From positions 1-35,430 of the forward strand of contig JAPHRE010000049.1 in the NCBI GenBank assembly GCA_026195905.1: a stretch of 35,430 nt of DNA. The letters are read 5' to 3'. Numbering within the stretch: the stretch's first letter is position 1; each line of letters opens with the position of its first letter. The notes under the pieces were generated by a model. It was not told the origin of the DNA, made no database searches, and worked only from the letters and a program-made list of their open reading frames with translations. Of the stretch, positions 9,558-28,474 are shown in pieces. The position numbers were made by a program, and so were the translations under genes. This DNA is from Pseudopelagicola sp. GTDB taxonomy: Bacteria > Pseudomonadota > Alphaproteobacteria > Rhodobacterales > Rhodobacteraceae.

Positions 9558-9569
9558 CAATATTTGGTC

Positions 9570-9598
9570 TTGCAGGGCTGCGCCATTCGTCATAAATC
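9570..9598 (+). promoter_or_regulatory. Promoter of tRNA-Thr
   Basis: TTGCAG (9570-9575) and TAAATC (9593-9598) are separated by 17 bases, placing transcription start a few bases before the tRNA 5' end at 9609. Confidence 0.45.
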
Positions 9599-9608
9599 CC
9601 TCTGCAGT

Positions 9609-9684
9609 GCCCCTATAGCTCAGCTGGTAGAGCAACTGATTTGTAATCAGTAGGTCCGCGGTTCGAGTCCGTGTGGGGGCACCA
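9609..9684 (+). tRNA. tRNA-Thr (anticodon TGT)
   Basis: A full 76-base cloverleaf. The acceptor stem pairs GCCCCTA with TGGGGGC. The anticodon stem ACTGA/TCAGT holds the loop TTTGTAA with anticodon TGT, and the T-loop is TTCGAGT. The discriminator A is followed by an encoded CCA (9682-9684). It reads ACA and, by wobble, other threonine codons. No integrase or att duplication is visible downstream. Confidence 0.97.
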
Positions 9685-9802
9685 CTTCACCATCCAGAAA
9701 ATCTAAATTGCTTTGTGTAGATTGCTTTTCCAGCTGCGCATGAGGCGGGCGGTGTTGGATTTGCGTTCCAACAGGGCTCTATTCATCGGGCGGTGTCAGT
9801 CT

Positions 9803-13945: not shown

Positions 13946-13981
13946 TTTCGTCTCCTTGAGCCGTGTGTGACAACGCGTCTT

Positions 13982-14004
13982 ATAGGGGTTCATCCAATCC
14001 CTAT
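13982..14004. promoter_or_regulatory. Near-perfect inverted repeat, candidate operator upstream of eutB
   Basis: The arms ATAGGGGTT (13982-13990) and AATCCCTAT (13996-14004) are complementary at 8 of 9 positions around a 5-base centre. A second, shorter dyad (AGAAC / GTTCT, 14017-14029) follows. Both lie in the 215-base divergent region between the sulfotransferase and eutB genes. A regulator-binding site is inferred; which regulator is unknown. Confidence 0.4.
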
Positions 14005-14094
14005 GTGCCACTGTCAAGAACTGGGTTCTGGGGCGCGGGGGTGTTGGGTATGAAAACGGAGCGGCAAGCGCACTCAGATGATCCGGGGATGATA

Positions 14095-14123
14095 TTGACA
14101 GGACAGGTCGTGGATGATGTTCT
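14095..14123 (+). promoter_or_regulatory. Possible promoter of eutBC-asnC
   Basis: A consensus -35 TTGACA (14095-14100) is followed after 17 bases by a weak -10 TGTTCT (14118-14123), about 38 bases before the eutB ATG. The -10 is poor, so activation by a regulator would be needed. Confidence 0.3.
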
Positions 14124-14160
14124 GCGCGGCGTTTTCCCCTTTCTAGGCCGGAGCGACGCG

Positions 14161-15168
14161 ATGCCCCTGACACTTGCCGATATTTTCGCCGCGCGTCGCC
14201 GTATTCGCGGTCTTGCAGATGCAACGCCGTTTATCCCATCGCCCTTTATGTCAGAGCGTGTCGGGCATGAGTTCCTCATGAAAATGGAGGTGATGCAACC
14301 CATTGGGGCGTTCAAATTGCGTGGAGCCTTGTCGGCGATCATGGCATTGCCGGAGGATGTCCGGGGTGTGACATGCTGTTCGACGGGCAATCATGGACGC
14401 GCTGTTGCGTATGCGGCACATCGGCGTGGGTTGAACGCGGTGATTTGCATGTCTGCCCTTGTGCCGAAGGCGAAGGTGGATGGTATCCGCGCGTTCGGGG
14501 CCGACGTTCGTATCGTCGGTCAAACACAGGACGAGGCCATGACCGAAAGCAAGCGTTTGTGCGAGGTTGAGGGGCTTGTGGAAGTGTCGCCTTTTGACGA
14601 TCCGCATGTGATCTCGGGGCAGGGGACGATTGGGCTTGAAATGCTGGAGGCACGCCCCGATCTTGAGACGCTGCTTGTGCCGCTTTCGGGGGGCGGATTA
14701 GCGGCAGGGGTTGCGGTTGCGGCAAAGGCTATCAAACCGGCGATTTCAGTCATTGGTATTTCTATGGATCGTGGGGCGGCAATGGCGCAGAGCATCCGTG
14801 CGGGCCATCCTGTTGAGGTGCCTGAATTTGCCTCGCTTGCCGATAGTCTTGGTGGGGGCATTGGTCTTCACAATCGCCTAAGCTTTCCGTTGTGCCGTGA
14901 TCTCCTTGATGACACGGTGCTTGTCACCGAAGAGGAAATCCGTCACGCGATGCAAGTGATGTTCTTTGAGGATCGTATTGCGGCAGAGGGCGCATCCGTT
15001 GTCGGGCAGGCAGCGGTGTTGGCGGGTAAGTTGCCAAAGGTGCGCGGCCCGGTTGGAACGATTGTGACAGGCCGCAACCTAGATATGGCGACATTCACGA
15101 AAATCATGATCGGCGAGGATGTGCACATCGGCGATCTCTTGGTGAAAGGCCAAAGCTATGGCGCATGA
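14161..15168 (+). CDS. eutB: EutB-like PLP-dependent dehydratase (hydroxyectoine utilization)
   Basis: A 335-residue fold-type II PLP enzyme of the threonine dehydratase family. The Schiff-base lysine is K52 in IGAFKLRGA, STGNHGR lies at 74-80, and the phosphate-binding glycine loop SGGGLAAG at 176-183. The sequence and the following eutC, asnC, ssd and atf genes match the ectoine/hydroxyectoine cluster of roseobacters, where EutB is needed for hydroxyectoine use. Upstream in-frame ATGs at 14050 and 14089 exist, but 14161 has GGAG 8-11 bases upstream and gives the family's usual start (LTLADIFAARRRI). It overlaps eutC by 11 bases. The related beta-hydroxyaspartate dehydratase is the main alternative. 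Confidence 0.8.
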   Translation: MPLTLADIFAARRRIRGLADATPFIPSPFMSERVGHEFLMKMEVMQPIGAFKLRGALSAIMALPEDVRGVTCCSTGNHGRAVAYAAHRRGLNAVICMSALVPKAKVDGIRAFGADVRIVGQTQDEAMTESKRLCEVEGLVEVSPFDDPHVISGQGTIGLEMLEARPDLETLLVPLSGGGLAAGVAVAAKAIKPAISVIGISMDRGAAMAQSIRAGHPVEVPEFASLADSLGGGIGLHNRLSFPLCRDLLDDTVLVTEEEIRHAMQVMFFEDRIAAEGASVVGQAAVLAGKLPKVRGPVGTIVTGRNLDMATFTKIMIGEDVHIGDLLVKGQSYGA

Positions 15169-16144
15169 TATTCAGATCGTCACCGAAGCACAGCTTCGCG
15201 GGGTTGTGGCGCTTGACCGCTGTGTTGTGGATGTCGTCGAGCAAGCGTTTTTGGCCTTGGCAAAAGAGGGTGTTGTGATGCCGCCGATCCTGTCGATGGA
15301 TTTGCCACAGGCCAATGGCGAAGTAGACGTTAAAACCGCCTTTATTCCCGGATTTGACGGATTTGCCATCAAGGTCAGCCCCGGTTTTTTCGACAACCCA
15401 AAACTTGGCCTTGCCAGCCTCAATGGGCTGATGATCCTGTTTTCGGCCAAGACCGGCCTTGTTGAGGCGCTTTATCTTGATAACGGCTATCTGACGGATA
15501 TCCGAACGGCGGCGGCGGGCGCTGTCGCGGCGCGCCATTTGGCCCCTGAGATCATCCATACCGCCGGTGTGATCGGAACCGGTGTTCAGGCGCGGCTTCA
15601 GATGCAGGCCGCACATCTTGTGCGGCCCTTCAAGAGGGTTCTGGTCACGGGACGCGACCTTGAAAAAGCCGCTGCTTGCGCGATGGATTTACACGAGGCG
15701 CTTGGCGTGGAAGCGGAGGTTGTGCGCGATCCGGCCCGTCTTGTATCGGAGTCTCAGCTTGTTGTGACGACAACCCCAGCACGCGCGCCGGTTTTGCGCG
15801 CAGAGTGGCTTCATCCGGGGCTGCATGTGACGGCAATGGGATCGGATCAAGCCGGCAAGAACGAGGTCGAGCCAGAGGCGCTTGTTGCGGCGGATGCCTA
15901 TGTGTGCGATCGCGTCAGCCAATGCGAAATCAGTGGTGAACTTGAGGCGGCTATGGCGGCGGGGGTCTGGAGCAAAGAGCGGCCAGCAGAGCTTGGGCAG
16001 GTCATTGCCGGGCAAAAGCCGGGACGGAGGCGGGAAACGGACGTGACGATTTGTGACCTGACCGGGACCGGAGCACAGGATACGGCCATCGCCAGTTTCG
16101 TGCGTCAAAAATTCGCCAGTATTGGCACTGTGATTGAGGCCTGA
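15158..16144 (+). CDS. eutC: EutC-like ornithine cyclodeaminase family protein
   Basis: A 328-residue protein of the ornithine cyclodeaminase / mu-crystallin family. An N-terminal substrate domain contains K72 (IKVSPGFFDN) and R116 (YLTDIRTAAAG), and the NAD-binding Rossmann loop is GVIGTGVQARLQ (137-148). In hydroxyectoine clusters EutC acts with EutB, probably reducing or deaminating an imine intermediate; the related iminosuccinate reductase BhcD also pairs with a EutB-like dehydratase. The start overlaps the end of eutB, showing translational coupling, and asnC follows after 5 bases. Confidence 0.82.
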   Translation: MAHDIQIVTEAQLRGVVALDRCVVDVVEQAFLALAKEGVVMPPILSMDLPQANGEVDVKTAFIPGFDGFAIKVSPGFFDNPKLGLASLNGLMILFSAKTGLVEALYLDNGYLTDIRTAAAGAVAARHLAPEIIHTAGVIGTGVQARLQMQAAHLVRPFKRVLVTGRDLEKAAACAMDLHEALGVEAEVVRDPARLVSESQLVVTTTPARAPVLRAEWLHPGLHVTAMGSDQAGKNEVEPEALVAADAYVCDRVSQCEISGELEAAMAAGVWSKERPAELGQVIAGQKPGRRRETDVTICDLTGTGAQDTAIASFVRQKFASIGTVIEA

Positions 16145-16149
16145 AATCC

Positions 16150-16629
16150 ATGCGTTTAGATGATCGTGACATAGAAATACTGCGCGTCTTGACGCGGGAA
16201 GGCCGGATTACCAAAGCCGCGCTGGCGGAACGGATCGGGCTTTCGCCGACGCCATGTTGGGATCGTTTGCGCAAGCTAGAAAAGGCGGGTTTGATTGAAG
16301 GATATGGTGCGCGGATCAATCTTCGCAAATTGGCCCCGCATGTGACGGTTTTTGTCGCCGTAGAAATAGCGGATCATACGGCGGCCAGCTTTCGTGCCTT
16401 TGAGGATGCGATGGAACGCTATGATGAGGTCGTATCCTGTTGGGCGCTTGGCGGTGGGTTCGACTATATCCTACAGATCGTGACGCGGGATATTGATGCC
16501 TACCAACGCCTGATTGATGCCATGCTGGATGCCCGGATCGGGCTGTCGCGCTATTTTACCTATGTTGTGACCAAGCCGGTCAAGGGCGGTGGTGGGGCAC
16601 CGTTTGATATCCTTTTGTCTGAAAGCTGA
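16150..16629 (+). CDS. Lrp/AsnC family regulator (DoeX/AsnC of the ectoine cluster)
   Basis: A 159-residue regulator: winged HTH in residues 1-60 (LSPTPCWDRLRKLEKAGLI is the recognition region), then a RAM ligand-binding domain in 65-150. DoeX/AsnC proteins in ectoine catabolic clusters sense a pathway intermediate such as diaminobutyrate and control the operon. It lies 5 bases after eutC, and a good match to the Lrp consensus (16660-16674) sits just after it, before ssd, suggesting local control. It is distinct in sequence from the second Lrp at 19663-20112. Confidence 0.85.
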   Translation: MRLDDRDIEILRVLTREGRITKAALAERIGLSPTPCWDRLRKLEKAGLIEGYGARINLRKLAPHVTVFVAVEIADHTAASFRAFEDAMERYDEVVSCWALGGGFDYILQIVTRDIDAYQRLIDAMLDARIGLSRYFTYVVTKPVKGGGGAPFDILLSES

Positions 16630-16674: not shown

Positions 16675-16748
16675 CGTCGTGAGGCAAGTTCAGACACCTT
16701 TTCTGTGGTGGGGTGGCATTCTCTTTTGTGCAAACAGGGGAGAAAGCG

Positions 16749-18224
16749 ATGTGTGAGACAGCTCTTTCGGCACGCGCGGATATTGAAGACAAGGCGCTTG
16801 TGCGGTCTTTTTCTTATATAAACGGCAAATGGTGCGCCGCCCAAAGCGGGGCCGCGTTCAAAGTGACCAACCCGGCCAATGGTGAATTGATCGGGGACGT
16901 CGCAAGCCTTTCGGCAGAAGAATCCTCTGCTGCGGTGGATGCTGCGCAGGCCGCTTTTGAAGATTGGGCAAACCTTTTGCCTCAGGACCGGTCCGCAATT
17001 TTGCGTCGGTGGTTCGAGTTGCAGATTGCCCATAAGGAAGATCTTGCGCGGATCATGGTGCTTGAACAAGGCAAGCCACTTTCAGAGGCGTGTGGCGAGA
17101 TCGACTATGGCGCGGCCTTTGTTGAGTTTTATGCCGAGGAGACCAAGCGCCCCAATATCGAGGGCGTGACAAGTCACCTGCCGGATGCGGAGGTTGAATT
17201 GTGGCGTGAGCCGGTGGGGGTTGCGGCGCTTATCACACCTTGGAATTTCCCGTCTGCGATGTTGACCCGCAAGGCAGCGGCCGCGCTGGCGGCAGGCTGC
17301 ACGGTCGTGGCGCACCCCTCGGCGGAAACACCGTTCAGCGCGCTGGCGCTGGCCGAATTAGCCGAGCGTGCGGGTATTCCCGCAGGTGTATTCAATGTTG
17401 TCACGGGAGATGCGGCGACGGTCGTCAAGCCGTGGACCGAGGACACCCGTGTGCGGGCCTTGTCCTTCACCGGCTCGACGCCGATTGGCAAGCTGCTTTA
17501 TCGCCAGTCAGCCGATACGGTCAAACGGCTGGTGATGGAGCTTGGCGGTCATGCGCCGGTGATTGTGTTCAAGGGCTGTGATCTTGATGTGGCCGTCGAA
17601 GAAACGATCAAGGCGAAGTTCGCCACCAGCGGGCAGGATTGTCTTGGGGCGAACCGGATATTTGTTGAGAAAGACATCTATGACGCATTCTGCGCGCGCT
17701 TTGTGGCGGCCACCCAGGCTCTTGAGGTCGGGACCGGCATGGATGACCCTGATATCGGGCCGTTGATGAACGAAAAAGCCGTTCAAAAGCAGGAAGAGCA
17801 TGTGGGGGATGCGCTGGCCAAAGGGGCCAAGCTGGTCTGTGGGGGCGAGCGTCTGGCGCTGGGGCCGCTCTTTTACGCGCCCACGGTGCTTGTTGATGTG
17901 CCGATGACGGCCAAAATCATGCATGAAGAGACCTTTGGCCCCGTCGCTGCGATTACGCCGTTTGAAACTGAGGATGAGGTTGTGGCGTGGGCCAATGATA
18001 CGGAATACGGCCTTGTGGCGTATCTTCATTGTCACGATCCGCGCCGTATCTATCGGATGAGCCGGTCATTGCAATTCGGGATGGTGGCGGTCAACCGCAC
18101 CAAGGTGACGGGCGCGCCGATCCCCTTTGGTGGGACCAAGCAATCGGGGCTGGGGCGTGAGGGATCGCGTCTTGGCATGGAAGAGTTTACAGAAATCAAA
18201 TACGTCTGCCGCGACTGGGCATAA
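16749..18224 (+). CDS. NAD(P)-dependent semialdehyde dehydrogenase (SSD/DoeC type)
   Basis: A 491-residue aldehyde dehydrogenase with N166 (TPWNFP), general base E264 (MELGGHAP) and nucleophile C298 in SGQDCLGANR. It oxidises a semialdehyde to the acid in the cytoplasm. In ectoine degradation the homologue converts aspartate semialdehyde to aspartate; succinate semialdehyde is the other likely substrate. The usual cofactor lysine in the VxKP motif is replaced: the sequence reads VVAHPSAETP around 187-196. GGGAGAAA supports the ATG at 16749 over one 36 bases upstream. The aminotransferase gene follows after 13 bases, so the two should act in sequence. Confidence 0.85.
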   Translation: MCETALSARADIEDKALVRSFSYINGKWCAAQSGAAFKVTNPANGELIGDVASLSAEESSAAVDAAQAAFEDWANLLPQDRSAILRRWFELQIAHKEDLARIMVLEQGKPLSEACGEIDYGAAFVEFYAEETKRPNIEGVTSHLPDAEVELWREPVGVAALITPWNFPSAMLTRKAAAALAAGCTVVAHPSAETPFSALALAELAERAGIPAGVFNVVTGDAATVVKPWTEDTRVRALSFTGSTPIGKLLYRQSADTVKRLVMELGGHAPVIVFKGCDLDVAVEETIKAKFATSGQDCLGANRIFVEKDIYDAFCARFVAATQALEVGTGMDDPDIGPLMNEKAVQKQEEHVGDALAKGAKLVCGGERLALGPLFYAPTVLVDVPMTAKIMHEETFGPVAAITPFETEDEVVAWANDTEYGLVAYLHCHDPRRIYRMSRSLQFGMVAVNRTKVTGAPIPFGGTKQSGLGREGSRLGMEEFTEIKYVCRDWA

Positions 18225-18237
18225 GAAAGGATATCCA

Positions 18238-19611
18238 ATGCTACGCAACGACCAACTGGAACAATGGGACCGCGAGAATTTTTTCCATCCCTCGACCCAC
18301 CTTGCCCAGCACGCGCGCGGCGAAAGTCCGACCCGTGTCATCCGCACCGCTGAGGGGGTCTTTATCGAGGATCGTGACGGCAACAAACTTCTGGATGCGT
18401 TTGCCGGTCTCTACTGTGTCAATGTCGGCTATGGCCGCCAGGAAATCGCCGAAGCCATCGCCGAGCAGGCGCGGGAGCTGGCCTATTATCATGCCTATGT
18501 CGGTCACGGCACCGAAGCGTCGATTACGCTTTCCAAGATGATCCTCGACCGCGCGCCCAAGAACATGTCGAAGGTCTATTTCGGCCTTGGTGGCTCGGAC
18601 GCGAATGAAACCAACGTCAAACTGATCTGGTATTACAACAACATCCTTGGCCGCCCCGAGAAGAAAAAGATCATCTCGCGTTGGCGCGGTTATCATGGGT
18701 CGGGCCTTGTGACGGGGTCGCTGACCGGGCTGGAGCTGTTCCATAAGAAATTCGACCTTCCGGTGGAGCAGGTAATCCATACCGACGCACCGTATTATTT
18801 CCGTCGCGAGAACCTAGATCAGACCGAGGCAGAATTCGTGGCCGAATGTGTGGCCTCGCTCGAAGAACTGATCGCGCGCGAGGGCGCGGATACCATTGCG
18901 GCCTTTATTGGCGAGCCGGTGCTTGGCACGGGCGGGATCGTGCCGCCGCCTGCGGGCTACTGGGATGCGATTCAGGGCGTGCTCAAGAAACACGACATCC
19001 TGCTTGTCGCGGATGAGGTTGTCACAGGGTTCGGTCGTCTTGGGTCTATGTTCGGGTCCGAGCACTATGGAATTGAGCCGGATATCATCACCATCGCCAA
19101 AGGGTTGACTTCGGCTTATGCGCCGCTGTCGGGTTCGATTGTGGGCGATAAGATGTGGAAAGTGCTTGAACAAGGCACGGATGAGAACGGCCCGATTGGT
19201 CACGGCTGGACCTATTCGGCGCATCCGATTGGGGCGGCGGCCGGTGTTGCCAACCTCAAGCTGCTGGACGAGATGAACCTTGTGTCGAACGCGGGCGAGG
19301 TCGGGGCATATCTCAACAAGGCCATGACCGAGGCGCTGGGCGACCATACCAATGTCGGAGATGTGCGTGGTGAAGGGATGCTCTGCGCGGTTGAGTTCGT
19401 CAAGGACAAGGACAGCCGCACCTTCTTTGATGCGGCGGACAAGATCGGTCCGCAGGTGTCGGAGAAATTGCTTGAACAGGACAAGGTCATCGCGCGGGCG
19501 ATGCCGCAGGGCGACATCCTTGGGTTTGCACCGCCGTTCTGCCTCAGCCGCGAGGAGGCCGATCGCGTGGTCGCCGCAACCGCGCGCGCGGTCAAGACGG
19601 TTCTTGGCTAA
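18238..19611 (+). CDS. Class III aminotransferase, DoeD/Atf type
   Basis: A 457-residue PLP aminotransferase of the omega type. PLP contacts include GSDANE (119-124), D259 in VADE, and the Schiff-base lysine K288 in TIAKGLTS. In ectoine degradation DoeD moves the 4-amino group of 2,4-diaminobutyrate to an acceptor, giving aspartate semialdehyde for the adjacent dehydrogenase. Taurine-pyruvate and other omega-amino acid aminotransferases are close relatives, so the substrate is inferred from context. The start at 18238 has AAGAAAGGA before it. A bidirectional hairpin follows at 19631-19656. Confidence 0.82.
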   Translation: MLRNDQLEQWDRENFFHPSTHLAQHARGESPTRVIRTAEGVFIEDRDGNKLLDAFAGLYCVNVGYGRQEIAEAIAEQARELAYYHAYVGHGTEASITLSKMILDRAPKNMSKVYFGLGGSDANETNVKLIWYYNNILGRPEKKKIISRWRGYHGSGLVTGSLTGLELFHKKFDLPVEQVIHTDAPYYFRRENLDQTEAEFVAECVASLEELIAREGADTIAAFIGEPVLGTGGIVPPPAGYWDAIQGVLKKHDILLVADEVVTGFGRLGSMFGSEHYGIEPDIITIAKGLTSAYAPLSGSIVGDKMWKVLEQGTDENGPIGHGWTYSAHPIGAAAGVANLKLLDEMNLVSNAGEVGAYLNKAMTEALGDHTNVGDVRGEGMLCAVEFVKDKDSRTFFDAADKIGPQVSEKLLEQDKVIARAMPQGDILGFAPPFCLSREEADRVVAATARAVKTVLG

Positions 19612-19662: not shown

Positions 19663-20112
19663 TCACAGCACATCGAGAGAAACCTTGACCCGATCCATGA
19701 CGACGGCGGTTTTGAAACGGCTTATATTGGATTCGTCAAAAAAGTAGGTTTGGGTAAACGTCTCGTATTCCTGAATATCCTCGACCGTGAGGATCAGCAC
19801 GAAATCAGCCTCGCCGGTGGTATAGTAGCATTGCTGAACGCAAGGCGCGCTGCGCATACGGCGCTTGAAGGCATCAAGCTGGGCGCGGCTTTCGCGCTCA
19901 AGGATCACCTCGACGATGATCGTCATCTCGCGGCCAAGTTTTGACGGCGAAAGCACGGCAATGTCGCGTTCTATCACGCCGCTTTCGCGCAACCGTTTGA
20001 GACGCTTCTGCACGGCTGGAGCCGAGAGGCCAACCTCGTGGCTGATTGCGTCGGCTGTCAGGCGGGCATCGTTTTGAACGAGTCGTAGTATCTCGAGGTC
20101 TTTGTCATCCAT
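19663..20112 (-). CDS. Lrp/AsnC family regulator of the M20-DAPAL operon
   Basis: A 149-residue Lrp-type protein with the HTH in residues 1-55 (LSAPAVQKRLKRLRESGVI) and a RAM domain in 65-140, including TGEADFVL near 98-105. It is transcribed divergently from the amidohydrolase gene with 129 bases between starts, the classic layout for a local regulator sensing the substrate of the facing operon. It differs from the asnC at 16150, so the two catabolic units probably answer to different inducers. Confidence 0.87.
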   Translation of the reverse strand: MDDKDLEILRLVQNDARLTADAISHEVGLSAPAVQKRLKRLRESGVIERDIAVLSPSKLGREMTIIVEVILERESRAQLDAFKRRMRSAPCVQQCYYTTGEADFVLILTVEDIQEYETFTQTYFFDESNISRFKTAVVMDRVKVSLDVL

Positions 20113-20138
20113 GCGCTGATTTTGATCGCCAAAGTGGC

Positions 20139-20153
20139 ATTTGAAAATGAAAT
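20139..20153. promoter_or_regulatory. Possible Lrp site in the divergent intergenic region
   Basis: ATTTGAAAATGAAAT has ATTT and AAAT ends separated by 7 bases and is the most AT-rich part of the lrp/M20 intergenic region. Lrp family sites are AT-rich and imperfectly symmetric. The evidence is weak beyond location and composition. Confidence 0.25.
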
Positions 20154-20241
20154 TCGTCGCATGAAAGGCGTTTTCGACATTGCGCCGCGCGGGTTTGAGT
20201 TAATCTAGCCCCTAAATCGCATGGGAAGAGATGCTTGGGTG

Positions 20242-21387
20242 ATGGACGGCTTTGAAAAAAGACTGATTGCGCTTCGGCGCGGTTTTCACAAAAGCCCTGA
20301 GATCGGGTTCGACCTCGATGAGACCAAAGCCCGCGTGGCGGATTTTCTGCGTGAACGCGGGCTGGAGGTGCATGAGGGTGCGGGTGTTGTTGCTGTGCTG
20401 CGTGCTGGAAACGGCAATCGCGCCATTGGGCTTCGCGCGGATATGGACGCGCTTGCGATCCATGAACGCGCAAGCCACGACTATATCTCGCAAACCCCCG
20501 GCGCGATGCATGCATGCGGCCATGATGGGCATATGGCGATGCTATTGGGGGCCGCCGAGATACTTGCCGAGCACCGCGATTTTGATGGAACGGTGGTTTT
20601 CCTGTTTCAACCCAATGAGGAGCATGGCCTTGGCGCGCAGGCGATGATCGCTGAAGGCGTGTTGGAGCGGTTCTCCATCGACGAGGTCTATGCGATTCAT
20701 AACCTGCCGGGTGCGCCGCTTGGGCAAGTGTCAACGCGCAAGGGGCTGATTTGCAATAGCGAGAGCCTGTTTGAAGTCCGCATCAAAGGGCAGGGCGGCC
20801 ACGCTTCAATGCCTCATGTTGGCGCAGAGACTCTGACCGTTGGGGCGGAGATAGTGCTTGCCCTTCAGACGGTTGTCGCGCGGAAAATGGCACCGGGGGC
20901 GGGGGCGGTTCTGTCTGTGACGGAATTCCTGACCGATGGGCAGCGCAATGTCCTACCCGGCGAGGCGGTGCTCAAGGGTGATGCCCGCGCACAAGCCCCG
21001 GCAGATCGTGCGGCGCTAGAGGCGCATATGCGTCGCCTTGTTGCGGGGATTGCCGCCGCGCATGGCGTCGATGTCGAGATGCAATTTGATACCGAATTCG
21101 TTGAGACGATCAATGCGCCAGAGCCGGTTGAGGCAGTCTACCGGGCGGCCAAAGCGACCGGCCTTGATCTGGTGCGTGAGCGCCCTTCGATGAGTTTCTC
21201 CGAGGATTTCGCGCATTTTGCCAATGCCGTGCCGGGCTGTTTTCTTCTGATGGGGAACGGCGAGGATGGTCCATACGGGCAGCCGCTCCACTCGGACAGC
21301 TATGATTTCAATGATGCGCTGCTCGCGAAGGGGGCTGCATTTTGGACCGCCCTTGTGCGCGACCGGATGCCGAAACGAAAGGACTGA
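20242..21387 (+). CDS. M20 family amidohydrolase / N-acyl-amino acid deacylase
   Basis: About 381 residues; the ATG at 20221 would add seven. Metal ligands are present: D68 (ADMDA), C92 and H94 in HACGHDGH, E126-E127 (PNEEHGLG), H153 (IHNLPG) and a late His (PLHSDSYDFND). It removes an acyl group from an N-acylated amino acid, releasing the free amine. An M20 enzyme (DoeB2) is known to replace the EutE/DoeB deacetylase for N-acetyl-2,4-diaminobutyrate in some ectoine clusters, which would fit this location; a generic aminoacylase is the alternative. It is the first gene of a four-gene operon, with a 3-base gap to the next. Confidence 0.83.
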   Translation: MDGFEKRLIALRRGFHKSPEIGFDLDETKARVADFLRERGLEVHEGAGVVAVLRAGNGNRAIGLRADMDALAIHERASHDYISQTPGAMHACGHDGHMAMLLGAAEILAEHRDFDGTVVFLFQPNEEHGLGAQAMIAEGVLERFSIDEVYAIHNLPGAPLGQVSTRKGLICNSESLFEVRIKGQGGHASMPHVGAETLTVGAEIVLALQTVVARKMAPGAGAVLSVTEFLTDGQRNVLPGEAVLKGDARAQAPADRAALEAHMRRLVAGIAAAHGVDVEMQFDTEFVETINAPEPVEAVYRAAKATGLDLVRERPSMSFSEDFAHFANAVPGCFLLMGNGEDGPYGQPLHSDSYDFNDALLAKGAAFWTALVRDRMPKRKD

Positions 21388-21390
21388 CCT

Positions 21391-22584
21391 ATGGATGAGG
21401 CATTTGCCCAAGCCAAGCTGACGCATGTTGCGGTCTCCCCGCGAAAAGGCGAGGCCGCGCGCACAGTTTTGACGCGTGATGATTTCACACAAGCCTATGA
21501 TGAGATTGCCCAATGGGAGGGTTACGCGCCGACGCCGCTTGTCTCGTTGTCGGGTTTGGCGGATGAGTTGGGGTTGGCGCAGATTGCCTACAAAGACGAA
21601 GGGCCACGTTTTGGCCTTGGGAGTTTCAAGGCGCTGGGGGGCGCTTATGCGGCTCTACGCGTGCTTCAGCGAGAGATTGCCAAACGGACGGGTCATGATG
21701 TCGCCCTCGCGCCAATCCGTAACGGAGAATACGCCGCGCAATGCAAGGATATTACGCTGGTGTCGGCGACGGACGGCAATCATGGGCGGTCGCTTGCGTG
21801 GGGCTGTCAGAGGTTTGGCGCCCCTTGTCGGATATATATTCACGCGGAGGTCAGCGCGGGACGGGCGCAGGCCATGCGAGACCTCGGGGCCGACGTGGTG
21901 CGGATTGAGGGGGATTATGACGAATCCGTTGCCCGCGCCAAGGCCGAGGCCGAGGTTAATGGCTGGTTCGTGGTTTCCGATACGTCTTGGCCCGGCTATA
22001 GCGCGCCGCCACGGGACGTTATGGCGGGGTATGGTGTGATGGTGCGCGAAGCCTGTGAGGCGCTCTCTCAGCCGCCGACGCATGTCTTCCTGCAAGGCGG
22101 GGTTGGGGGGCTTGCCGCAGCGGTGGCCGCGACCTTGCATCAACATTGGGGAGAGGCCCGCCCGCGTGTTGTCGTGGTTGAGCCGGAATGGGCTGCCTGC
22201 CTGATCGAAAGTGCGCGGCGCGGGACGGCAACGTCGGTTTCGATTGCGGATGAAACCATCATGGCAGGGTTGTCCTGTGGTGAGCCGTCGCAAATGGCAT
22301 GGGAAATCCTTGCGCAAGAGGCCTCTGACTATCTGACGATTCCCGATCTCATTGTCGCGCCGACGGTGCGGCTCCTGGCGCGGGGCGACTGCGGTGATCC
22401 GCAGGTGGAGGCGGGCGAAAGTGCCGTGGCAGGGCTTGCCGCGTTGATTGCAGCGCATGAAGATCCTGCACTGTGGCGCACGCTGGGCCTTGATGCGCAA
22501 TCGCGTGTGTTTCTGATTGGCTCGGAAGGGGTTACGGACCCTGTGATCTTTCGCGAAATCATGGAGGGTGTGCGTCATGGCTGA
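21391..22584 (+). CDS. 2,3-Diaminopropionate ammonia-lyase
   Basis: A 397-residue fold-type II PLP enzyme closely patterned on E. coli DAPAL. The Schiff-base lysine is K80 in RFGLGSFKALGG, the catalytic aspartate of SATDGNHGR is D128, and a second aspartate lies in the VSDTSWPGY motif. The glycine-rich PLP loop is GGVGGLAAAV. DAPAL converts 2,3-diaminopropionate to pyruvate and two ammonia. Keeping both catalytic aspartates makes the reaction class firm, though other 2,3-diamino or 3-hydroxy amino acids could be substrates. The gene is 3 bases after the M20 gene and overlaps the M24 gene by 8 bases, so it is strongly coupled. Confidence 0.88.
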   Translation: MDEAFAQAKLTHVAVSPRKGEAARTVLTRDDFTQAYDEIAQWEGYAPTPLVSLSGLADELGLAQIAYKDEGPRFGLGSFKALGGAYAALRVLQREIAKRTGHDVALAPIRNGEYAAQCKDITLVSATDGNHGRSLAWGCQRFGAPCRIYIHAEVSAGRAQAMRDLGADVVRIEGDYDESVARAKAEAEVNGWFVVSDTSWPGYSAPPRDVMAGYGVMVREACEALSQPPTHVFLQGGVGGLAAAVAATLHQHWGEARPRVVVVEPEWAACLIESARRGTATSVSIADETIMAGLSCGEPSQMAWEILAQEASDYLTIPDLIVAPTVRLLARGDCGDPQVEAGESAVAGLAALIAAHEDPALWRTLGLDAQSRVFLIGSEGVTDPVIFREIMEGVRHG

Positions 22585-23755
22585 GACGCCCATCCGAGGG
22601 TTTGGCGAAGGTGAATATCGCGCCAGAACTGCGCGAGCGCAGAGCAAGATGGCGGCGCAGGGGATCGCAGGGCTTTTGTTGATGACAGAGCCGGATGTGC
22701 GGTATTTTTCCGGCTTTCAAACGCCGTTTTGGCAAAGCCCAACGCGCCCGTGGTTTCTCTTTGTGCCGGTGTCTGGCAAGCCCGTTGCCGTTATCCCCGA
22801 AATTGGCGCGGTCTTGATGCGCACGACCTGGATCGAGGACATCCGCACTTGGAATGCGCCCAACCCAGCCGATGACGGGATCAGCCTTTTGCGTGATCTT
22901 CTTGCGCCTATAGCGGCGCAAAAGGGCAGCATCGCAATGATGATGGGGCATGAAACAAGCCTTCGGATGCCTCTGGCGGAGTATGACCGTTTGCGTGCGG
23001 CCTTGCCGGGGTTGCGGGTGAAAGACGCAACCGCGCTTGTGCAGGGCGCGCGGATGGTCAAATCCGAGGCTGAGATCGACAAGATACGCCATATCTGTTG
23101 CATTGCGTCGCGTTGCTTTGACCGTGTCCCGGAGTTGGTCAGTGCGGGTCAGCCCTTCGAGGAGGTGTTTCGGGCTTTTCGCCGCGAGGCCTTGGCGCAG
23201 GGGGCGGACGACGTGCCATATCTTGTCGGAGGTGCAGAGCAGGGCGGCTATCGTGATGTGATCTCGCCGCCATCGCGACGTCCGATGCAGATTGGCGATG
23301 TTTTCATGCTTGATACGGGCATGACGTGGGATGGATATTTCTGTGATTTTGATCGCAACTATGGGGTTGGCAGGGTGGATGACGCGACGCAGCGCGCCTA
23401 TGAAACCCTGTGGCACGCGACCGAAGCCGGCCTTGCGGCGATCCGTCCCGGCGCAAGCTGCCGCGATGTCTATAGCGCGATGCAGGCGGTGCTTGCGCGT
23501 GGCAAAGAACAGGGCGCAGCGGTTGGGCGGTTTGGTCATGGGCTTGGTATGCAATTGACCGAGGTGCCGTCCATCGCAGCGTTTGACGAGACGGTCCTTC
23601 AGGAAAACATGGTGCTTACGCTTGAGCCATCGCTTGCATACGGGGAGCATCGTCTCATGGTTCATGAAGAGAATATCGTGGTGCGTGCCTCGGGCGCGGA
23701 GGCACTGTCCGTGCGTGCGCCTGAGTGGTTGCCGCTTATCGGAGGGACCAGATGA
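22577..23755 (+). CDS. M24 family metallopeptidase (Xaa-Pro peptidase / DoeA superfamily)
   Basis: A 392-residue pita-bread protein: a creatinase-type N-terminal domain (1-155) and a catalytic domain (160-385). The dinuclear metal set is complete: D246 (LDTG), D257 (FCDFDR), H321 (GHGLG), E350 (LEP) and E364 or E365. Ectoine hydrolase EutD/DoeA belongs to this superfamily, but the N-terminal segment here (SGFQTPFWQS, 45-54) is not the typical EutD one, so I do not name it EutD. Likely roles are ring opening of an ectoine-like cyclic amidine or hydrolysis of a peptide or amide. The start overlaps the lyase gene and the end overlaps the racemase gene by ATGA. Confidence 0.82.
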   Translation: MAETPIRGFGEGEYRARTARAQSKMAAQGIAGLLLMTEPDVRYFSGFQTPFWQSPTRPWFLFVPVSGKPVAVIPEIGAVLMRTTWIEDIRTWNAPNPADDGISLLRDLLAPIAAQKGSIAMMMGHETSLRMPLAEYDRLRAALPGLRVKDATALVQGARMVKSEAEIDKIRHICCIASRCFDRVPELVSAGQPFEEVFRAFRREALAQGADDVPYLVGGAEQGGYRDVISPPSRRPMQIGDVFMLDTGMTWDGYFCDFDRNYGVGRVDDATQRAYETLWHATEAGLAAIRPGASCRDVYSAMQAVLARGKEQGAAVGRFGHGLGMQLTEVPSIAAFDETVLQENMVLTLEPSLAYGEHRLMVHEENIVVRASGAEALSVRAPEWLPLIGGTR

Positions 23756-24510
23756 AACTTGGGTTTGAGGTGGATGGCGGTATCGGCACACGCGCCACGC
23801 TTGGGGTTATTCTCTTGTCGGCGGATGAAACGCTTGAGCCCGAGTTCGCGCGTATGGTCGCGCCGCTGGACGAAGTTGCGCTTTATCATAGCCGTATTCG
23901 AATGGTGAATGAGATACGGGCCGACACACTGGGTCAGATGGAGGCGGATTTGCCCTTGGCAGCGGCGTTGTTGCCGAGGGCGCGAGATTTCGACGTTATC
24001 GGATATGGCTGCACGTCGGCGGCTTCGGTGATCGGTTCCGAAACCGTGGCGCGCACCATTCAAGGGGTTTTCCCCAAAGCCCAAGTGACCGACCCGCTGG
24101 CCGCGATTATTGCGGCAGGGCATCGCTTGGGGATTAAGAAAATCGGCTTTATATCGCCTTATGTCGCTGCGGTTTCGGCGCGGATGCGGGAACGCCTTGA
24201 GGCGGCGGGATTTGAGATTGCCGGTTTTGGATCGTTCGAAGAAGCCGATGATCGCGTTGTGGCACGGATCACCGAAGCCTCAATCGAAGAGGCCGCACTT
24301 TGCATGGCAGAGCACGCGTCCTGTGATGCCATTGTGGCGACCTGCACCAATCTCCGGTGCCTTAATGTGATTGAACGGGTGGAGAAAAAGACCGGGATTA
24401 CAATGCTTTCGAGCAATCAAGCCCTTGGTTGGCATATGTTGCGTCTGGCGGGTGTGCATGCGCCATTGTCGGGGATGGGGCGGCTGTTCAAATGCGATCT
24501 TCAGGGCTAG
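23752..24510 (+). CDS. EutA-like Asp/Glu racemase / maleate isomerase family protein
   Basis: A 252-residue member of the Asp/Glu racemase-arylmalonate decarboxylase-maleate isomerase family. The two catalytic cysteines are C87 (GYGCTSA) and C198 (TCTNLR), placed as expected, and the C-terminal segment LSSNQALGWHMLRLAG (about 215-230) resembles EutA of hydroxyectoine clusters. EutA works with EutB and EutC in hydroxyectoine use, but here it sits at the end of the other operon, coupled to the M24 gene through an ATGA overlap. The chemistry (racemisation, isomerisation or ring attack) cannot be read from the sequence. Confidence 0.75.
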   Translation: MKLGFEVDGGIGTRATLGVILLSADETLEPEFARMVAPLDEVALYHSRIRMVNEIRADTLGQMEADLPLAAALLPRARDFDVIGYGCTSAASVIGSETVARTIQGVFPKAQVTDPLAAIIAAGHRLGIKKIGFISPYVAAVSARMRERLEAAGFEIAGFGSFEEADDRVVARITEASIEEAALCMAEHASCDAIVATCTNLRCLNVIERVEKKTGITMLSSNQALGWHMLRLAGVHAPLSGMGRLFKCDLQG

Positions 24511-24555: not shown

Positions 24556-25722
24556 TTAAACGCCTAGAAGAGCGAGGCTTTGTTCGGCGATGGTCTTTTC
24601 TTCGTCCGTTGGGATCACGAGTGCTTTGACCTTGCTTTCCTTGGTGGAAAGAAGTGTTTCATTGGCCGCATTTGCAGGCCGATCAATGGTAAGACCAAGC
24701 CAGGCACAGCCCTCAAGGATGCTTTGGCGCACCTGTGCGGCATGTTCGCCGATACCTGCGGTAAAGACGATCGCATCCAGCCCGCCCAAGACCGCCGCTT
24801 TGGCACCGATCTCGCTTATGCAGCGATAGACGAACAGATCAATGGCTTCTTGCGCATGTGGGTTATTGCTTTCGGTGAGGTCGCGCATATCGCTGCTGAT
24901 GCCCCCGGACACCCCGAGAAGCCCCGATTGCGACGACAGAAGGGCTTCGGTTTCGGTCAGGCTTAACCCCTTGTCGCGCAAAAGATAAAGGATCACGCCG
25001 GGGTCAATTGCACCACAGCGTTTACCCATCATCAACCCATCAAGCGCCGTGAACCCCATTGAGGTTGCGACGCTCTGTCCATTGTGCATGGCGCAAAGGC
25101 TGGCGCCGTGGCCAAGATGCAGGACGATCACCCGGCGGCGCTCTTGTTTGGAAAGAAAATCGGGCAGGCGGGACGCGATGTAATCATAGCTTAGCCCGTG
25201 AAAGCCATAGCGCAGAACACCTTCGTCGCTGAGGGCGCGGGGAATGGCGAAAAGCTCGGCGAGGCGGGGTTGGGTGCGGTGAAAAGCGGTATCAAAACAG
25301 GCGACCTGTGGCAGGTCGGGCCAGACCGCAGAGATGGCGTCAATCCCAGCAAGGTTATGCGGTTGGTGCCCGAGGGCGAGGGGCGTAAGAGCCTGAATTT
25401 TCTTAAGAACCTGCGGTGTGATCCGGGTTGCCTTGGTGAAATCCTGGCCGCCATGCACAACCCGATGTCCCGCCGCGATGACGTCAAGCGCGGGAAAGCG
25501 GCGGCGTATCGAGGCGGTCAACCATGCCAGCGCGGCTTGGTGGTCGATCCCGCCGTCGCGGGGCAGGGCGGTGGTGCCATTCTCGTCGTGATGCTCGGGG
25601 GCTTGGCCGATGCGGTCGATCAGACCTTTGGCAATCAAGGCACGCTCGGCCCCTGTGTCGTAGAGGGCATATTTGAGCGACGAGCTTCCGGCGTTGAGGG
25701 TCAGGATCGCGTGGTGTTTCAC
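24556..25722 (-). CDS. ackA: Acetate kinase
   Basis: A 388-residue ASKHA-fold kinase interconverting acetate + ATP and acetyl phosphate. Family motifs are present: LNAGSSSLKYAL (9-20), HRVVHGG (about 86-92), GFHGLSYDYI (about 173-182), LHLGHGASLCAM (about 201-212) and FTAGIGEHA (about 319-327). The start is GTG at 25722, sharing a GTGA overlap with the stop of the upstream phosphate acyltransferase gene, so the pair is translationally coupled. It is convergent with the EutA-like gene, 45 bases apart. Butyrate or propionate kinase activity is possible but the motifs favour acetate kinase. Confidence 0.92.
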   Translation of the reverse strand: MKHHAILTLNAGSSSLKYALYDTGAERALIAKGLIDRIGQAPEHHDENGTTALPRDGGIDHQAALAWLTASIRRRFPALDVIAAGHRVVHGGQDFTKATRITPQVLKKIQALTPLALGHQPHNLAGIDAISAVWPDLPQVACFDTAFHRTQPRLAELFAIPRALSDEGVLRYGFHGLSYDYIASRLPDFLSKQERRRVIVLHLGHGASLCAMHNGQSVATSMGFTALDGLMMGKRCGAIDPGVILYLLRDKGLSLTETEALLSSQSGLLGVSGGISSDMRDLTESNNPHAQEAIDLFVYRCISEIGAKAAVLGGLDAIVFTAGIGEHAAQVRQSILEGCAWLGLTIDRPANAANETLLSTKESKVKALVIPTDEEKTIAEQSLALLGV

Positions 25723-26693
25723 AGAACACCCTTTCCAAGCCGATGATGCACGAGGAGTTGGGCGAGGGCGGCGGAGACCACCCGCGAGAGGGTGCCGTCG
25801 GCGCGGCTTGTGAGCATGACCGGCACCCGGCCACCGAGAACAAGCCCGGCGGAATCTGCGCCTGCGAGATACATGAGCTGCTTTGCGATCATGTTGCCGG
25901 CCTCAAGGTCGGGCGCGATCAGAATGTCGGGATCGCCCGCCACATCAGAAATAATCCCTTTTGTTTCAGCGGCTTCGCGGGAAACGGCGTTATCAAACGC
26001 AAGCGGGCCATCCAGGATGCCGCCGGTGATCTGATGCCGGTCAGCCATTTTGCAGAGCGCGGCGGCCTCAACGGTTGAGGGAATGCGCGGGTTGACGGTT
26101 TCGAGCGCCGAAAGGATGGCGACCTTGGGGGTCTCAACGCCGATGGCCTGTGCCAGTTCGATGGCGTTTTGAACGATGTCGGCTTTGGTTTCGAGGTCGG
26201 GGAAGATGTTGATGGCGGCGTCGGAGATCAGGAGCGGTTTGGGGTAAGCTGGCACATCAAGCACAAAAATATGGCTCATGCGGCGTTCGGTGCGCAATCC
26301 GCGTTCTTTATGGACGATTTCGCCCATCAATTCGTCGGTGTGCAACGCGCCTTTCATCAAGGCTTTGGCCTTGGCCTCATGCACCAGACAGACAGATTTT
26401 CTTGCCGAGTCGTGGCTATGCAAAGAATCAACAATTTCAAAGCCTTGAATGTCGATTTTCGCCTCCTCTGCGGCGGCTTCGATCTTGCTTTTGGGGCCGA
26501 CGAGGATGGGGATTATCAGGCCATTTTGATAGGCGTAGAGCGCGCCTTCGAGAGAGGCGGCATCACAGGGGTGCACAACGGCGGTCGGGATCGGGTCGAG
26601 ATCGCGGGTCGCAGCGAGCATCCGGTCGAAACATGCCCCCTTTGCGTGCACTTCCTTGGTGGCGTGTTCGGTGGGATTTAATGGAAGAATCAA
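25719..26693 (-). CDS. pta: Phosphate acetyl/acyltransferase (short Pta/Ptb type)
   Basis: A protein of about 324 residues consisting of a single PTA_PTB domain, without the long N-terminal regulatory part of enteric Pta. Typical stretches include ISDAAINIFPDLETKADIVQNA (middle) and AGLVLGGRVPVMLTSRAD near the end. It converts acetyl-CoA and phosphate to acetyl phosphate, feeding AckA, or works in reverse. A TTG at 26693 has AGGAG 8 bases upstream and is the best start; an in-frame ATG at 26726 lacks a well-spaced ribosome site. The sequence resembles the transferase half of MaoC-Pta fusions, so longer acyl groups are possible. Confidence 0.87.
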   Translation of the reverse strand: MILPLNPTEHATKEVHAKGACFDRMLAATRDLDPIPTAVVHPCDAASLEGALYAYQNGLIIPILVGPKSKIEAAAEEAKIDIQGFEIVDSLHSHDSARKSVCLVHEAKAKALMKGALHTDELMGEIVHKERGLRTERRMSHIFVLDVPAYPKPLLISDAAINIFPDLETKADIVQNAIELAQAIGVETPKVAILSALETVNPRIPSTVEAAALCKMADRHQITGGILDGPLAFDNAVSREAAETKGIISDVAGDPDILIAPDLEAGNMIAKQLMYLAGADSAGLVLGGRVPVMLTSRADGTLSRVVSAALAQLLVHHRLGKGVL

Positions 26694-26854
26694 AGGGTTA
26701 ACTCCTGCAAATTGTCCTGTGCCCATCCTTGTGCCTGTGCCGATTGGAGGGGCTTTGGCGCGGTTCTAATGCACTTGTAGCAATTGGGCATGACATAGGG
26801 CAAATCCTGTCGGATTTTTACCGGTGCCGTAGCGGCAATGGGGGCAAAAACCCA

Positions 26855-26957: not shown

Positions 26958-27764
26958 TTACTCGGCGTTGTAGGTAAAGAGCTTTTCGCCGTTGAGCATA
27001 TAGCCGTCGATCAGAGCCTTGGCGCGGTCGGTGAGAAGCCAATCTTGAAGCTTGGCGGCAAGGTCGGCTTTGACATGGGCGTGGGTCTCGGGGTTGACCA
27101 TGATGTAGCTATATTGATTGAAGAGCACCGGGTCGCCGGAGAACAGCAGCGCCAGATCGCCCTTGTTGGCGAATTTGAGCCAGCTTGCCCGATCGCTCAT
27201 GATGTAGGCGTTCATGCCTGACGCTGTGTTCAGGGCCGCGCCCATGCCCGCGCCAACAGCGCGATACCATGCGGTCTCAAAACTGTCCGCGTCGAGCCCG
27301 GCACCGGACCAGAGCGCGATTTCTTTCTTGTGGGTGCCGCTATCGTCGCCGCGGCTGACGAAGGGGGATTGGGCATCGCGGATCGCGGTCAGGGCGGTGG
27401 CGGCGGTATCGACAGCGGCGATGCCCGCCGGGTCGTCCGAGGGACCGATCAGCACGAAATCATTATACATGAAGGGGACACGGGCGACGCCGTGACCTTG
27501 GGCGACGAATTTCTCCTCGGCGGCTTTGGCGTGGACAAGGATGGCATCGACATCGCCCGCACGCCCAAGGCGAAGTGCCTGACCTGTGCCGACCACAACG
27601 AGATGCACATCAAGGTCGAGATCGGCCTTGATCTCGGGGAGGAGGATTTCGGCAAGACCGGAATTATGAAACGACGTGGTGACGGCCATGCGGATGTCAT
27701 CGGCCAAGGCCTGACCGGCCATCAGGGCGGTGACGGTAAGGGATAGTAGGGTTTTGCGGATCAT
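26958..27764 (-). CDS. tupA: Tungstate ABC transporter substrate-binding protein
   Basis: A 268-residue periplasmic protein with a signal peptide (1-21, cleavage after ALA). The oxyanion-binding TTS motif is at 29-31, followed by F-H-N-S-G-L, and SRGDDSGTHKKE lies near 137-148, both typical of TupA. It binds tungstate with high selectivity and delivers it to TupBC, supporting tungsten enzymes such as formate dehydrogenases. The start overlaps the stop of tupC by 4 bases (ATGA). Molybdate cannot be ruled out as a minor ligand. Confidence 0.9.
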   Translation of the reverse strand: MIRKTLLSLTVTALMAGQALADDIRMAVTTSFHNSGLAEILLPEIKADLDLDVHLVVVGTGQALRLGRAGDVDAILVHAKAAEEKFVAQGHGVARVPFMYNDFVLIGPSDDPAGIAAVDTAATALTAIRDAQSPFVSRGDDSGTHKKEIALWSGAGLDADSFETAWYRAVGAGMGAALNTASGMNAYIMSDRASWLKFANKGDLALLFSGDPVLFNQYSYIMVNPETHAHVKADLAAKLQDWLLTDRAKALIDGYMLNGEKLFTYNAE

Positions 27765-28474
27765 AGGACGATATCTCCTTTGAGGAAGGCTATGGCCTCT
27801 GGGGTCTGAGGGGTTGCGAAAAAGCGATCGGCGGGGCCGTGTTCGAGGAGCGCCCCTTTATGGATAAAGAGCACATCGGTGGCGAGGCGGCGGGCCTGTC
27901 CAAGGTCGTGGGTCGCCATGATGAGGCGGGTGCCTTGGGTATGGGCCTCTTGGAGGAGGGATTCGATTTCGGCGGTGGCCTGGCCATCAAGGTTCGAGCA
28001 TGGCTCATCAAGGAAAAGCACCGACGGGGCGCGGATCAGGGCGCGGGCCATAGCGAGTTTCTGACGCTCGCCGCCAGAGAGCGTATTGGCGGGGCGGTTG
28101 GCATGGGGGGTGAGGCCGATACGGTCCAGCCAGTCGGCGGCGACGGCGCGGGCGGGTTTGCGGGCCATGCCATGCGCGACCAGCGGATAGGCGATATTGT
28201 CGAGCACCGAGCGGCGCAGCAGGATCGCATGTTGAAAGACGAAGGCTTGATGCAGGTGGGCGATATCGTGCGGGACGGCCCAATGGACGGTGCCGGAGGC
28301 GGGGCGGTCCAGCCCATGCATGAGACGCAAGAGCGAGGATTTCCCGGCCCCATTCGGGCCGAGGAGGATCGTGGTGCCTGTGCCCGACAGGGTCAGGGAG
28401 ACGGGGCCGAGGATCGTCTTGCCGGTTTTACGCACAGAGGCGTTGGTCAGGGATAGGGGCAGGAGATCTACCAA
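27761..28474 (-). CDS. tupC: Tungstate ABC transporter ATP-binding protein
   Basis: A 237-residue ABC ATPase: Walker A GPNGAGKS (39-46), Q-loop region near 75-81, signature LSGGERQK (132-139), Walker B VLFLDEP (152-158) and a switch His in MATHD. It powers tungstate import with TupB. It overlaps tupB by 7 bases and tupA by 4, giving the order tupB-tupC-tupA on the minus strand. Its length is that of a bare ABC domain without the extra TOBE domain seen in ModC. Confidence 0.9.
   Translation of the reverse strand: MVDLLPLSLTNASVRKTGKTILGPVSLTLSGTGTTILLGPNGAGKSSLLRLMHGLDRPASGTVHWAVPHDIAHLHQAFVFQHAILLRRSVLDNIAYPLVAHGMARKPARAVAADWLDRIGLTPHANRPANTLSGGERQKLAMARALIRAPSVLFLDEPCSNLDGQATAEIESLLQEAHTQGTRLIMATHDLGQARRLATDVLFIHKGALLEHGPADRFFATPQTPEAIAFLKGDIVL

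Follow-up and report, generated by a model that had tools for sequence, protein, structure and literature searches.

Ectoines are nitrogen-rich osmolytes which are eaten by marine bacteria. The described systems closest to the locus reported here are the eut/doe gene clusters for ectoine and hydroxyectoine. Passages of a 2018 review state that the EutABC hydroxyectoine steps had not been evaluated biochemically at that time, that many clusters were without eutA, and that variant routes were to be expected (PMC5924519); passages of a 2026 paper continue to treat these steps as proposed (PMC13188858). In this work we analyzed a stretch of 35,430 nucleotides (contig JAPHRE010000049.1, referred to as the window) from Pseudopelagicola sp. 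(Rhodobacteraceae), in which four coupled genes encode an M20 amidohydrolase/deacylase, a pyridoxal phosphate (PLP) fold-type II enzyme of the diaminopropionate ammonia-lyase type (DAPAL), an M24 metallopeptidase-fold hydrolase and a EutA-like two-cysteine protein. We consider it probable, though well short of certain, that these genes are a conserved accessory module, probably under Lrp control, by which Alphaproteobacteria break down ectoine-type compatible solutes, most likely in the branch of 5-hydroxyectoine or of a close relative.

As far as passages of the two papers describe the eut/doe clusters, the module resembles them in that its EutA-like protein, PLP fold-type II enzyme (EutB-like fold), M24 protein (DoeA-like fold), deacylase and AsnC/Lrp regulator belong to parallel superfamilies, and in the window it lies beside eutBC-asnC-ssd-atf genes (PMC5924519, PMC13188858). 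It differs from them in that its M20, M24 and EutA-like proteins do not reach the curated cut-offs, the M24 protein keeps its metal ligands, the DAPAL-type enzyme stands beside eutB and does not replace it, and no eutC is found inside the module. An accessory role in ectoine-type catabolism, which is argued for by linkage to doeA, co-occurrence with it, ectoine-type transporters and conservation of the set, is the best supported statement; in chemical terms a hydroxyectoine branch would fit it best.

All four genes are on the forward strand. The M20 open reading frame (ORF) occupies 20221-21387 or, from a second possible start codon, 20242-21387, and is followed after a 3-base gap by the DAPAL gene (21391-22584), with which the M24 gene (ATG at 22577, end at 23755) overlaps by 8 bases; the EutA-like ORF (ATG at 23752, end at 24510) in turn overlaps the M24 gene by ATGA. 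A Lrp/AsnC regulator gene (19663-20112, reverse strand) is divergent from M20, at a distance of 108 or 129 bases depending on the M20 start codon. A sequence-only reading of this DNA had described these junctions and the facing Lrp regulator, a DAPAL with its lysine and both aspartates kept, and a cysteine pair in the EutA-like protein. The junctions and the regulator were confirmed from the DNA, the three DAPAL residues (K, D and D) were recovered in an alignment, and both cysteines are present.

The set recurs in other genomes, as was found with the gene-neighbourhood survey which the sequence-only reading had proposed. In named records, where the best 80 M24 relatives were taken with 8 kb flanks (some loci being shortened by contig ends), the M24 gene was accompanied by a EutA-like gene in 65 loci, a DAPAL-type gene in 61, an M20 gene in 41 and a relative of the Lrp gene in 40, and all four module genes occurred together in 36 of the 80. 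A survey of the window family, in which each of 149 genera was represented by a single genome, placed M24 in 75 genera. A DAPAL-family hit (E 1e-40) was found in 74 of these 75 genomes vs 6 of the 74 M24-negative ones. The DAPAL gene was within 3 kb of M24 in 64 of the 75, and a EutA-like gene in 62, the EutA-like counts using 84 of 90 genomes with the weakest rows left out; M24, DAPAL and doeA were counted from complete lists. M20 is the least constant member, since a gene of the close kind was within 5 kb of M24 in just 9 of the 75, as counted on the best 26 of 54 M20-positive genomes. The clustering of the four genes is beyond chance, and accidental juxtaposition was rejected on the basis of both surveys. 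M24 copies with a nearby DAPAL gene were also found on plasmids of Phaeobacter, Aliiroseovarius, Roseovarius, Photobacterium, Vibrio, Sinorhizobium and Agrobacterium, and in the last four of these genera TRAP, BCCT or amino-acid ABC transporters lie beside the plasmid copies.

The presence of the module is tied to that of doeA, the ectoine hydrolase gene. In the family survey doeA was found in 62 of the 75 M24-positive genomes vs 35 of the 74 M24-negative ones (p 6e-6). In a second survey, of 289 genomes spread over the Alphaproteobacteria and counted from complete lists, doeA was present in 28 of 39 genomes with M24 vs 7 of 250 others (p 1e-23) and, conversely, M24 in 28 of 35 genomes with doeA vs 11 of 254 others; with the four positive members of the window family removed, the association held at p 2e-20. 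In the class survey M24 was found in 26 taxonomic families, doeA in 25 and both in 19. The alpha subunit gene of sarcosine oxidase (soxA), present in 112 of the 289 genomes, was used as a lifestyle control. It was present in all 39 M24-positive genomes (p 7e-19) and in all 35 with doeA, and within the 112 soxA-positive genomes the association between M24 and doeA remained (doeA present in 28 and absent from 11 of those with M24, vs 7 and 66 of those lacking it, p 2e-11).

The two genes are also physically linked in several lineages. Among the 62 family genomes that have both, doeA and M24 are separated by no more than 12 kb in 6, where about 0.4 such genomes would be expected under rough random placement. 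Three genomes (G189, G072 and G130; loci L151-L153) carry the order eutB-eutC-atf-PALP-M24-eutA-like-pot, PALP being the protein family of DAPAL, with a doeA-argE pair transcribed divergently from it; this arrangement is interrupted by additional ORFs in G130 and cut off within the pot genes by the end of the contig in G072. In these three and in the window the M24 gene is 3.5-7.5 kb from eutB; in the remaining 16 of the 20 genomes that have M24 and eutB it is not found within 12 kb of eutB. In G177, G103 and G084 (L154-L156) M24 is about 2-6 kb from doeA; of these, G103 has M24 and a EutA-like gene only, with no PALP beside M24, and G084 is of the window type, with DAPAL and M20. In a genome of the window genus (G005) doeA is about 3 kb from M24. 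Outside the family, two genomes of one genus (G364 and G457; L169, L170) have PALP-M24-eutA-like-doeA on one strand, and in a third family (G338; L171) the triplet lies beside eutBC-doeA-asnC-ssd-atf.

In the window itself a eutB-eutC-asnC-ssd-atf series lies directly upstream of the module and on the same strand, and went unrecognized in the sequence-only reading; the same series precedes the module in Shimia aestuarii. The series comprises eutB, the hydroxyectoine utilization dehydratase gene (13963-15168, its true start probably being inside the ORF), eutC (15158-16144), an AsnC/Lrp regulator gene in the asnC position of the ectoine cluster (16150-16629), an aldehyde dehydrogenase gene of the ssd/doeC type, so named by position and by kinship to succinate semialdehyde dehydrogenase (16713-18224), and a class III aminotransferase gene of the atf/doeD type, named by position (18238-19611). 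Both EutB and EutC meet curated NCBIfam cut-offs (NF005680, 436.7 bits, cut-off 413; NF006141, 475 bits, cut-off 408) and are just below those of the TIGR versions (408 vs 413 bits for EutB; 454 vs 472 for EutC with TIGR02992). The aminotransferase is 95% identical in Shimia aestuarii and 75-88% identical in ectoine clusters of other genomes. The nearest relatives in named records are those of Shimia aestuarii (M24 76%, DAPAL 80% identity) and of a Rhodobacteraceae metagenome-assembled genome (77% and 80%), and the window is that of a Shimia-type genome. Its doeA is on another contig (G000:C9:8292-9458), and at 588 bits the product is just under the TIGR02993 cut-off of 613. This doeA is followed by an M20 gene which is ArgE-like by reading (8292-10674 of locus L021 for the pair), and relatives of the pair stand together in L151-L155, L053, L055, L162 and L164.

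Transporters of the kinds that serve ectoines were found beside some module loci. The counts over 119 loci that follow, like the M24 and EutA-like alignments, include some genomes entered twice (for example L041 and L072). In one locus (L130) an EhuABCD-type ABC importer lies beside the module, with EhuA at 395 bits (cut-off 345) and EhuB at 173 (cut-off 191). An EhuA-like ATPase at 53-56% identity was found in 7 of the 119 loci, with two Rhizobiaceae ones at 45-47% and the rest at 39% or below. A UehC-like TRAP permease with 57-60% identity to that of a eutABC cluster (L158) was found in 5 of the 119, other TRAP permeases having at most 34%. ProU-like importers, recognized by a ProV-like ATPase, were present in 4 of the 119, and in 9 there was a Pot-like importer accompanied by a second M24 whose metal site is incomplete. 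From these counts, just a minority of module loci show any such transporter. The Pot-type (spermidine/putrescine-like) ABC importer was seen near the module in L151-L156, L121, L122 and L131, and inside ectoine clusters in L151-L156, partly so in L152; the second M24 near the Pot genes has N, A, H, E and D at the ligand positions in 11 of 12 cases. This Pot-type system is possibly an unrecognized ectoine importer.

The window DAPAL belongs to the PALP/DAPAL family and scores 475 bits against NF006058 (cut-off 276), with 307 bits against TIGR03528 (cut-off 532) and 273.4 against TIGR01747 (cut-off 274). In an alignment of 118 PALP-family proteins, in which again some genomes were entered twice, it has K, D and D at the positions of Lys77, Asp120 and Asp189 of E. 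coli YgeX. Following the sequence-only reading, we take Asp189 to be a catalytic residue; in passages of a published study Lys77 and Asp120 are named as potential catalytic residues of DAPAL (PMC4000059). The enzyme is predicted to act as a PLP ammonia-lyase. Of the 118 proteins, 62 were nearest to the window DAPAL, and 61 of these (the window protein and YgeX counted) have K, D, D; the exception is a Vibrio protein annotated dpaL, with K, A, D. In other genomes a second PALP type occupies the same slot or stands divergent beside M24; all 43 of its 43 members have K, A, D and so lack Asp120, and the type formed one group in a tree of 40 rows (support 100/100). In the same tree YgeX grouped with the Vibrio dpaL product (99/100), apart from the other module PALPs. 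Since the second type lost Asp120 throughout, a 2,3-diamino substrate is not common to all forms of the module. EutB proteins have K, T and P at the three positions in 13 of 13. A simple replacement of EutB by DAPAL was rejected for the window genome, where eutB and eutC adjoin the module.

The M24 protein combines an M24 domain with a Creatinase_N domain (creatinase/prolidase N-terminal domain). Its five metal ligands (D, D, H, E, E) are complete, as they are in 126 of 126 aligned proteins of the module type, whereas in DoeA-type proteins the first four are changed in 17 of 17 (to E, P, Y, M in 15). Since DoeA has lost four of the five ligands, the module M24 is no copy of DoeA, and the candidate of a doeA duplicate was rejected on the metal site and on the DoeA score of 71 bits (cut-off 613). 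In the predicted structure (mean predicted local distance difference test score, pLDDT, of 83) the first fold match was PepE, followed by DoeA and prolidases, and PepE was the best match by sequence as well, with prolidases close behind. Prolidases use these same five metal ligands. The module M24 shares both fold and ligands with prolidase/PepE-type peptidases; unlike them it has a context of amino-acid and osmolyte catabolism, and its identity is 28% or less among the 50 fold matches listed. A lyase of the DddP type, acting on dimethylsulfoniopropionate, was rejected as well, as none was found among the best 60 of 70 PDB sequence matches, and by fold it ranked 43 with 17% identity.

The M20 protein (PF01546) passes the general amidohydrolase model TIGR01891 with 284 bits (cut-off 154). 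The EutA-like protein belongs to the superfamily of Asp/Glu racemase, arylmalonate decarboxylase (AMDase), maleate isomerase and EutA, with which it shares two catalytic-type cysteines; the EutA-family pair is kept in 115 of 115 aligned sequences, four from eutABC clusters included. It differs from EutA and AMDase proper by falling below the NCBIfam cut-offs of both.

Several results weigh against an ectoine role, or narrow it. None of the module proteins scores as its eut/doe counterpart: the M24 protein reaches 71 bits against the DoeA/EutD model TIGR02993 (cut-off 613), the lyase 48 against the EutB model (cut-off 413), the EutA-like protein 164.8 against TIGR02990 (cut-off 318), and the M20 protein 297.5 against DoeB2 (NF038260, cut-off 550), which was the best of 16 families and still below cut-off. 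The difference in metal site also means that the M24 protein is no paralogue of DoeA in mechanism. For 56 of the 62 family genomes with both genes, the distance between M24 and doeA exceeds 12 kb or the two lie on separate contigs, and at the threshold used no doeA was detected in 13 of the 75 family genomes and 11 of the 39 class genomes that carry M24. As soxA is present in all M24-positive class genomes, lifestyle explains part of the doeA signal, and the Fisher p values overstate independence because the genomes are related. Co-occurrence of eutB with M24 in the family (one weaker second eutB match being left out of the counts) was not significant (20 of 75 vs 13 of 74, p 0.24). Contig ends allowing, eutB/eutC stand beside the module in 1 of the 80 named-record loci, and adjacency to eutBC as a general rule was rejected on this count. 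A result in favour of the ectoine role is that M24 was found in 19 of 26 genomes whose eutB has no eutA within 3 kb vs 1 of 7 with one (p 0.008), a complementarity with EutA that comes from few and related genomes.

In an accessory ectoine-type route, the metal-dependent M24 hydrolase, together with the M20 deacylase, would free a diamino or hydroxy-diamino acid from a ring-opened, acylated solute, and the EutA-like epimerase would set a stereocentre. The PLP ammonia-lyase could then remove the alpha-amino group together with the beta substituent, leaving a 2-oxo acid and releasing ammonia; with 3-hydroxy-2,4-diaminobutyrate the product would be 4-amino-2-oxobutanoate, which the nearby Atf and Ssd might take to oxaloacetate. 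A bolder proposal, which we hold to be unlikely, is that marine Alphaproteobacteria widely use an undescribed route for a solute that resembles ectoine but is not ectoine itself, with a second metal-dependent M24 and a DAPAL-type lyase, where the skeleton would be deaminated directly to a 2-oxo acid without transamination of diaminobutyrate. In its boldest form the substrate may be a cyclic N-acyl-2,3-diaminopropionate, that is, a ring-contracted ectoine analogue; to our knowledge such a compound has not been reported as a natural osmolyte.

The sequence-only reading had instead proposed a separate pathway for a compound of the 2,3-diaminopropionate type, N-acylated or bound in a peptide. In such a pathway the M24 and M20 enzymes would free the diamino acid, the racemase would adjust it and DAPAL would yield pyruvate and two ammonia, and the nearby ectoine genes would reflect shared osmolyte-eating islands. 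The window DAPAL, which passes NF006058 and keeps Lys77, Asp120 and Asp189 as does YgeX, is consistent with such a pathway, as are the 13 M24-positive family genomes lacking doeA. E. coli offers a likeness in ygeW-ygeX-ygeY, where ygeX adjoins the peptidase-family gene ygeY, whose product we take to be an M20 protein. However, the M24 and EutA-like partners also occur with the PALP type that lost Asp120, the window M20 gave no match to YgeY models at E 1e-5, and linkage and co-occurrence with doeA argue for another substrate. The E. coli locus itself is unlike the module: the two DAPALs are 36% identical, the M20 subfamily is another, the setting is one of xanthine dehydrogenase and hydantoinase genes, and no M24 or EutA-like gene is among the ten annotated features examined there. 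A YgeX-YgeY-type locus was rejected on the M20 subfamily and on the branching of YgeX apart from the other module PALPs, a branching that also speaks against the 2,3-diaminopropionate pathway. Taken together, we consider that pathway unlikely. What stood of the sequence-only reading is a coupled, Lrp-flanked catabolic operon with an intact DAPAL; its pathway was unsupported as stated, since relatives point to ectoine-type solutes through doeA linkage and Ehu- and Ueh-type transporters, and the 2,3-diamino intermediate did not survive as a constant feature of the module. Its remark that no pathway with this set had been described agrees with our finding that, among the open-licence literature matches listed, none describes the gene set as judged by title or the start of the abstract.

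Two further explanations draw on the neighbours and on the M24 and M20 enzymes. Generic scavenging of peptides or N-acyl amino acids under Lrp, in which M24 would serve as a dipeptidase akin to prolidase, M20 as an aminoacylase, and DAPAL and the racemase as broad amino acid enzymes, would agree with the full metal site of M24, its closeness to PepE and prolidases and the passing of TIGR01891 by M20; the tight and conserved triplet, the co-occurrence with doeA and the ectoine-type transporters point instead to one defined small solute, and we judge scavenging to be distinctly unlikely. We regard as about equally unlikely a module for a betaine-type or N-methylated solute, of which a flavin adenine dinucleotide (FAD)-dependent demethylase of the dimethylglycine dehydrogenase/sarcosine type in 10 of 90 loci (9 of 119 in the larger set), an EctD-like dioxygenase in 8 loci, the ProV-like ATPases, a BCCT transporter beside M24 in Vibrio cortegadensis and the presence of soxA in every M24-positive class genome are suggestive. 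Such neighbours occur in a minority of loci, none was found among the window ORFs scanned, and BCCT and ProU systems also take up ectoines. The sole NCBIfam match of the dioxygenase is ectoine hydroxylase, at 62.7 bits against a cut-off of 336.5. The FAD demethylase gene was seen beside M24 in L130 (2970-7048) and in other loci, several of them with a second EutA-like gene.

The region between the Lrp and M20 genes (20113-20241) is a putative control region. A common word, GAAATTCGTC, lies near 20149 and was found with at most 2 mismatches in 16 of 24 intergenic sequences (the window counted), a weak signal among related sequences; in a promoter and terminator scan sites were no more numerous than in shuffles. 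Downstream, an acetate kinase-like gene (24556-25722) and a phosphate acetyltransferase-like gene (25719-26726), both on the reverse strand and named by reading their translations, converge on the module, and are also found in Shimia aestuarii and the close metagenome-assembled genome. Their pairing with the module would be sensible if a deacetylase releases acetate. Beyond these, a substrate-binding protein gene (26958-27764) and an ATPase gene (27761-28474), also on the reverse strand, have the look of a molybdate/tungstate-type ABC importer by reading only, and the binding-protein gene is kept beside the module in close relatives.

The module is a concrete candidate for a variant hydroxyectoine route: its M24 gene is carried by 75 of the 149 family genera sampled and shows both a statistical association with the ectoine hydrolase gene and, in several lineages, physical linkage to it. 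If the accessory ectoine-type role is true, genes that are now named diaminopropionate ammonia-lyase, Xaa-Pro peptidase and Asp/Glu racemase would have to be re-annotated.

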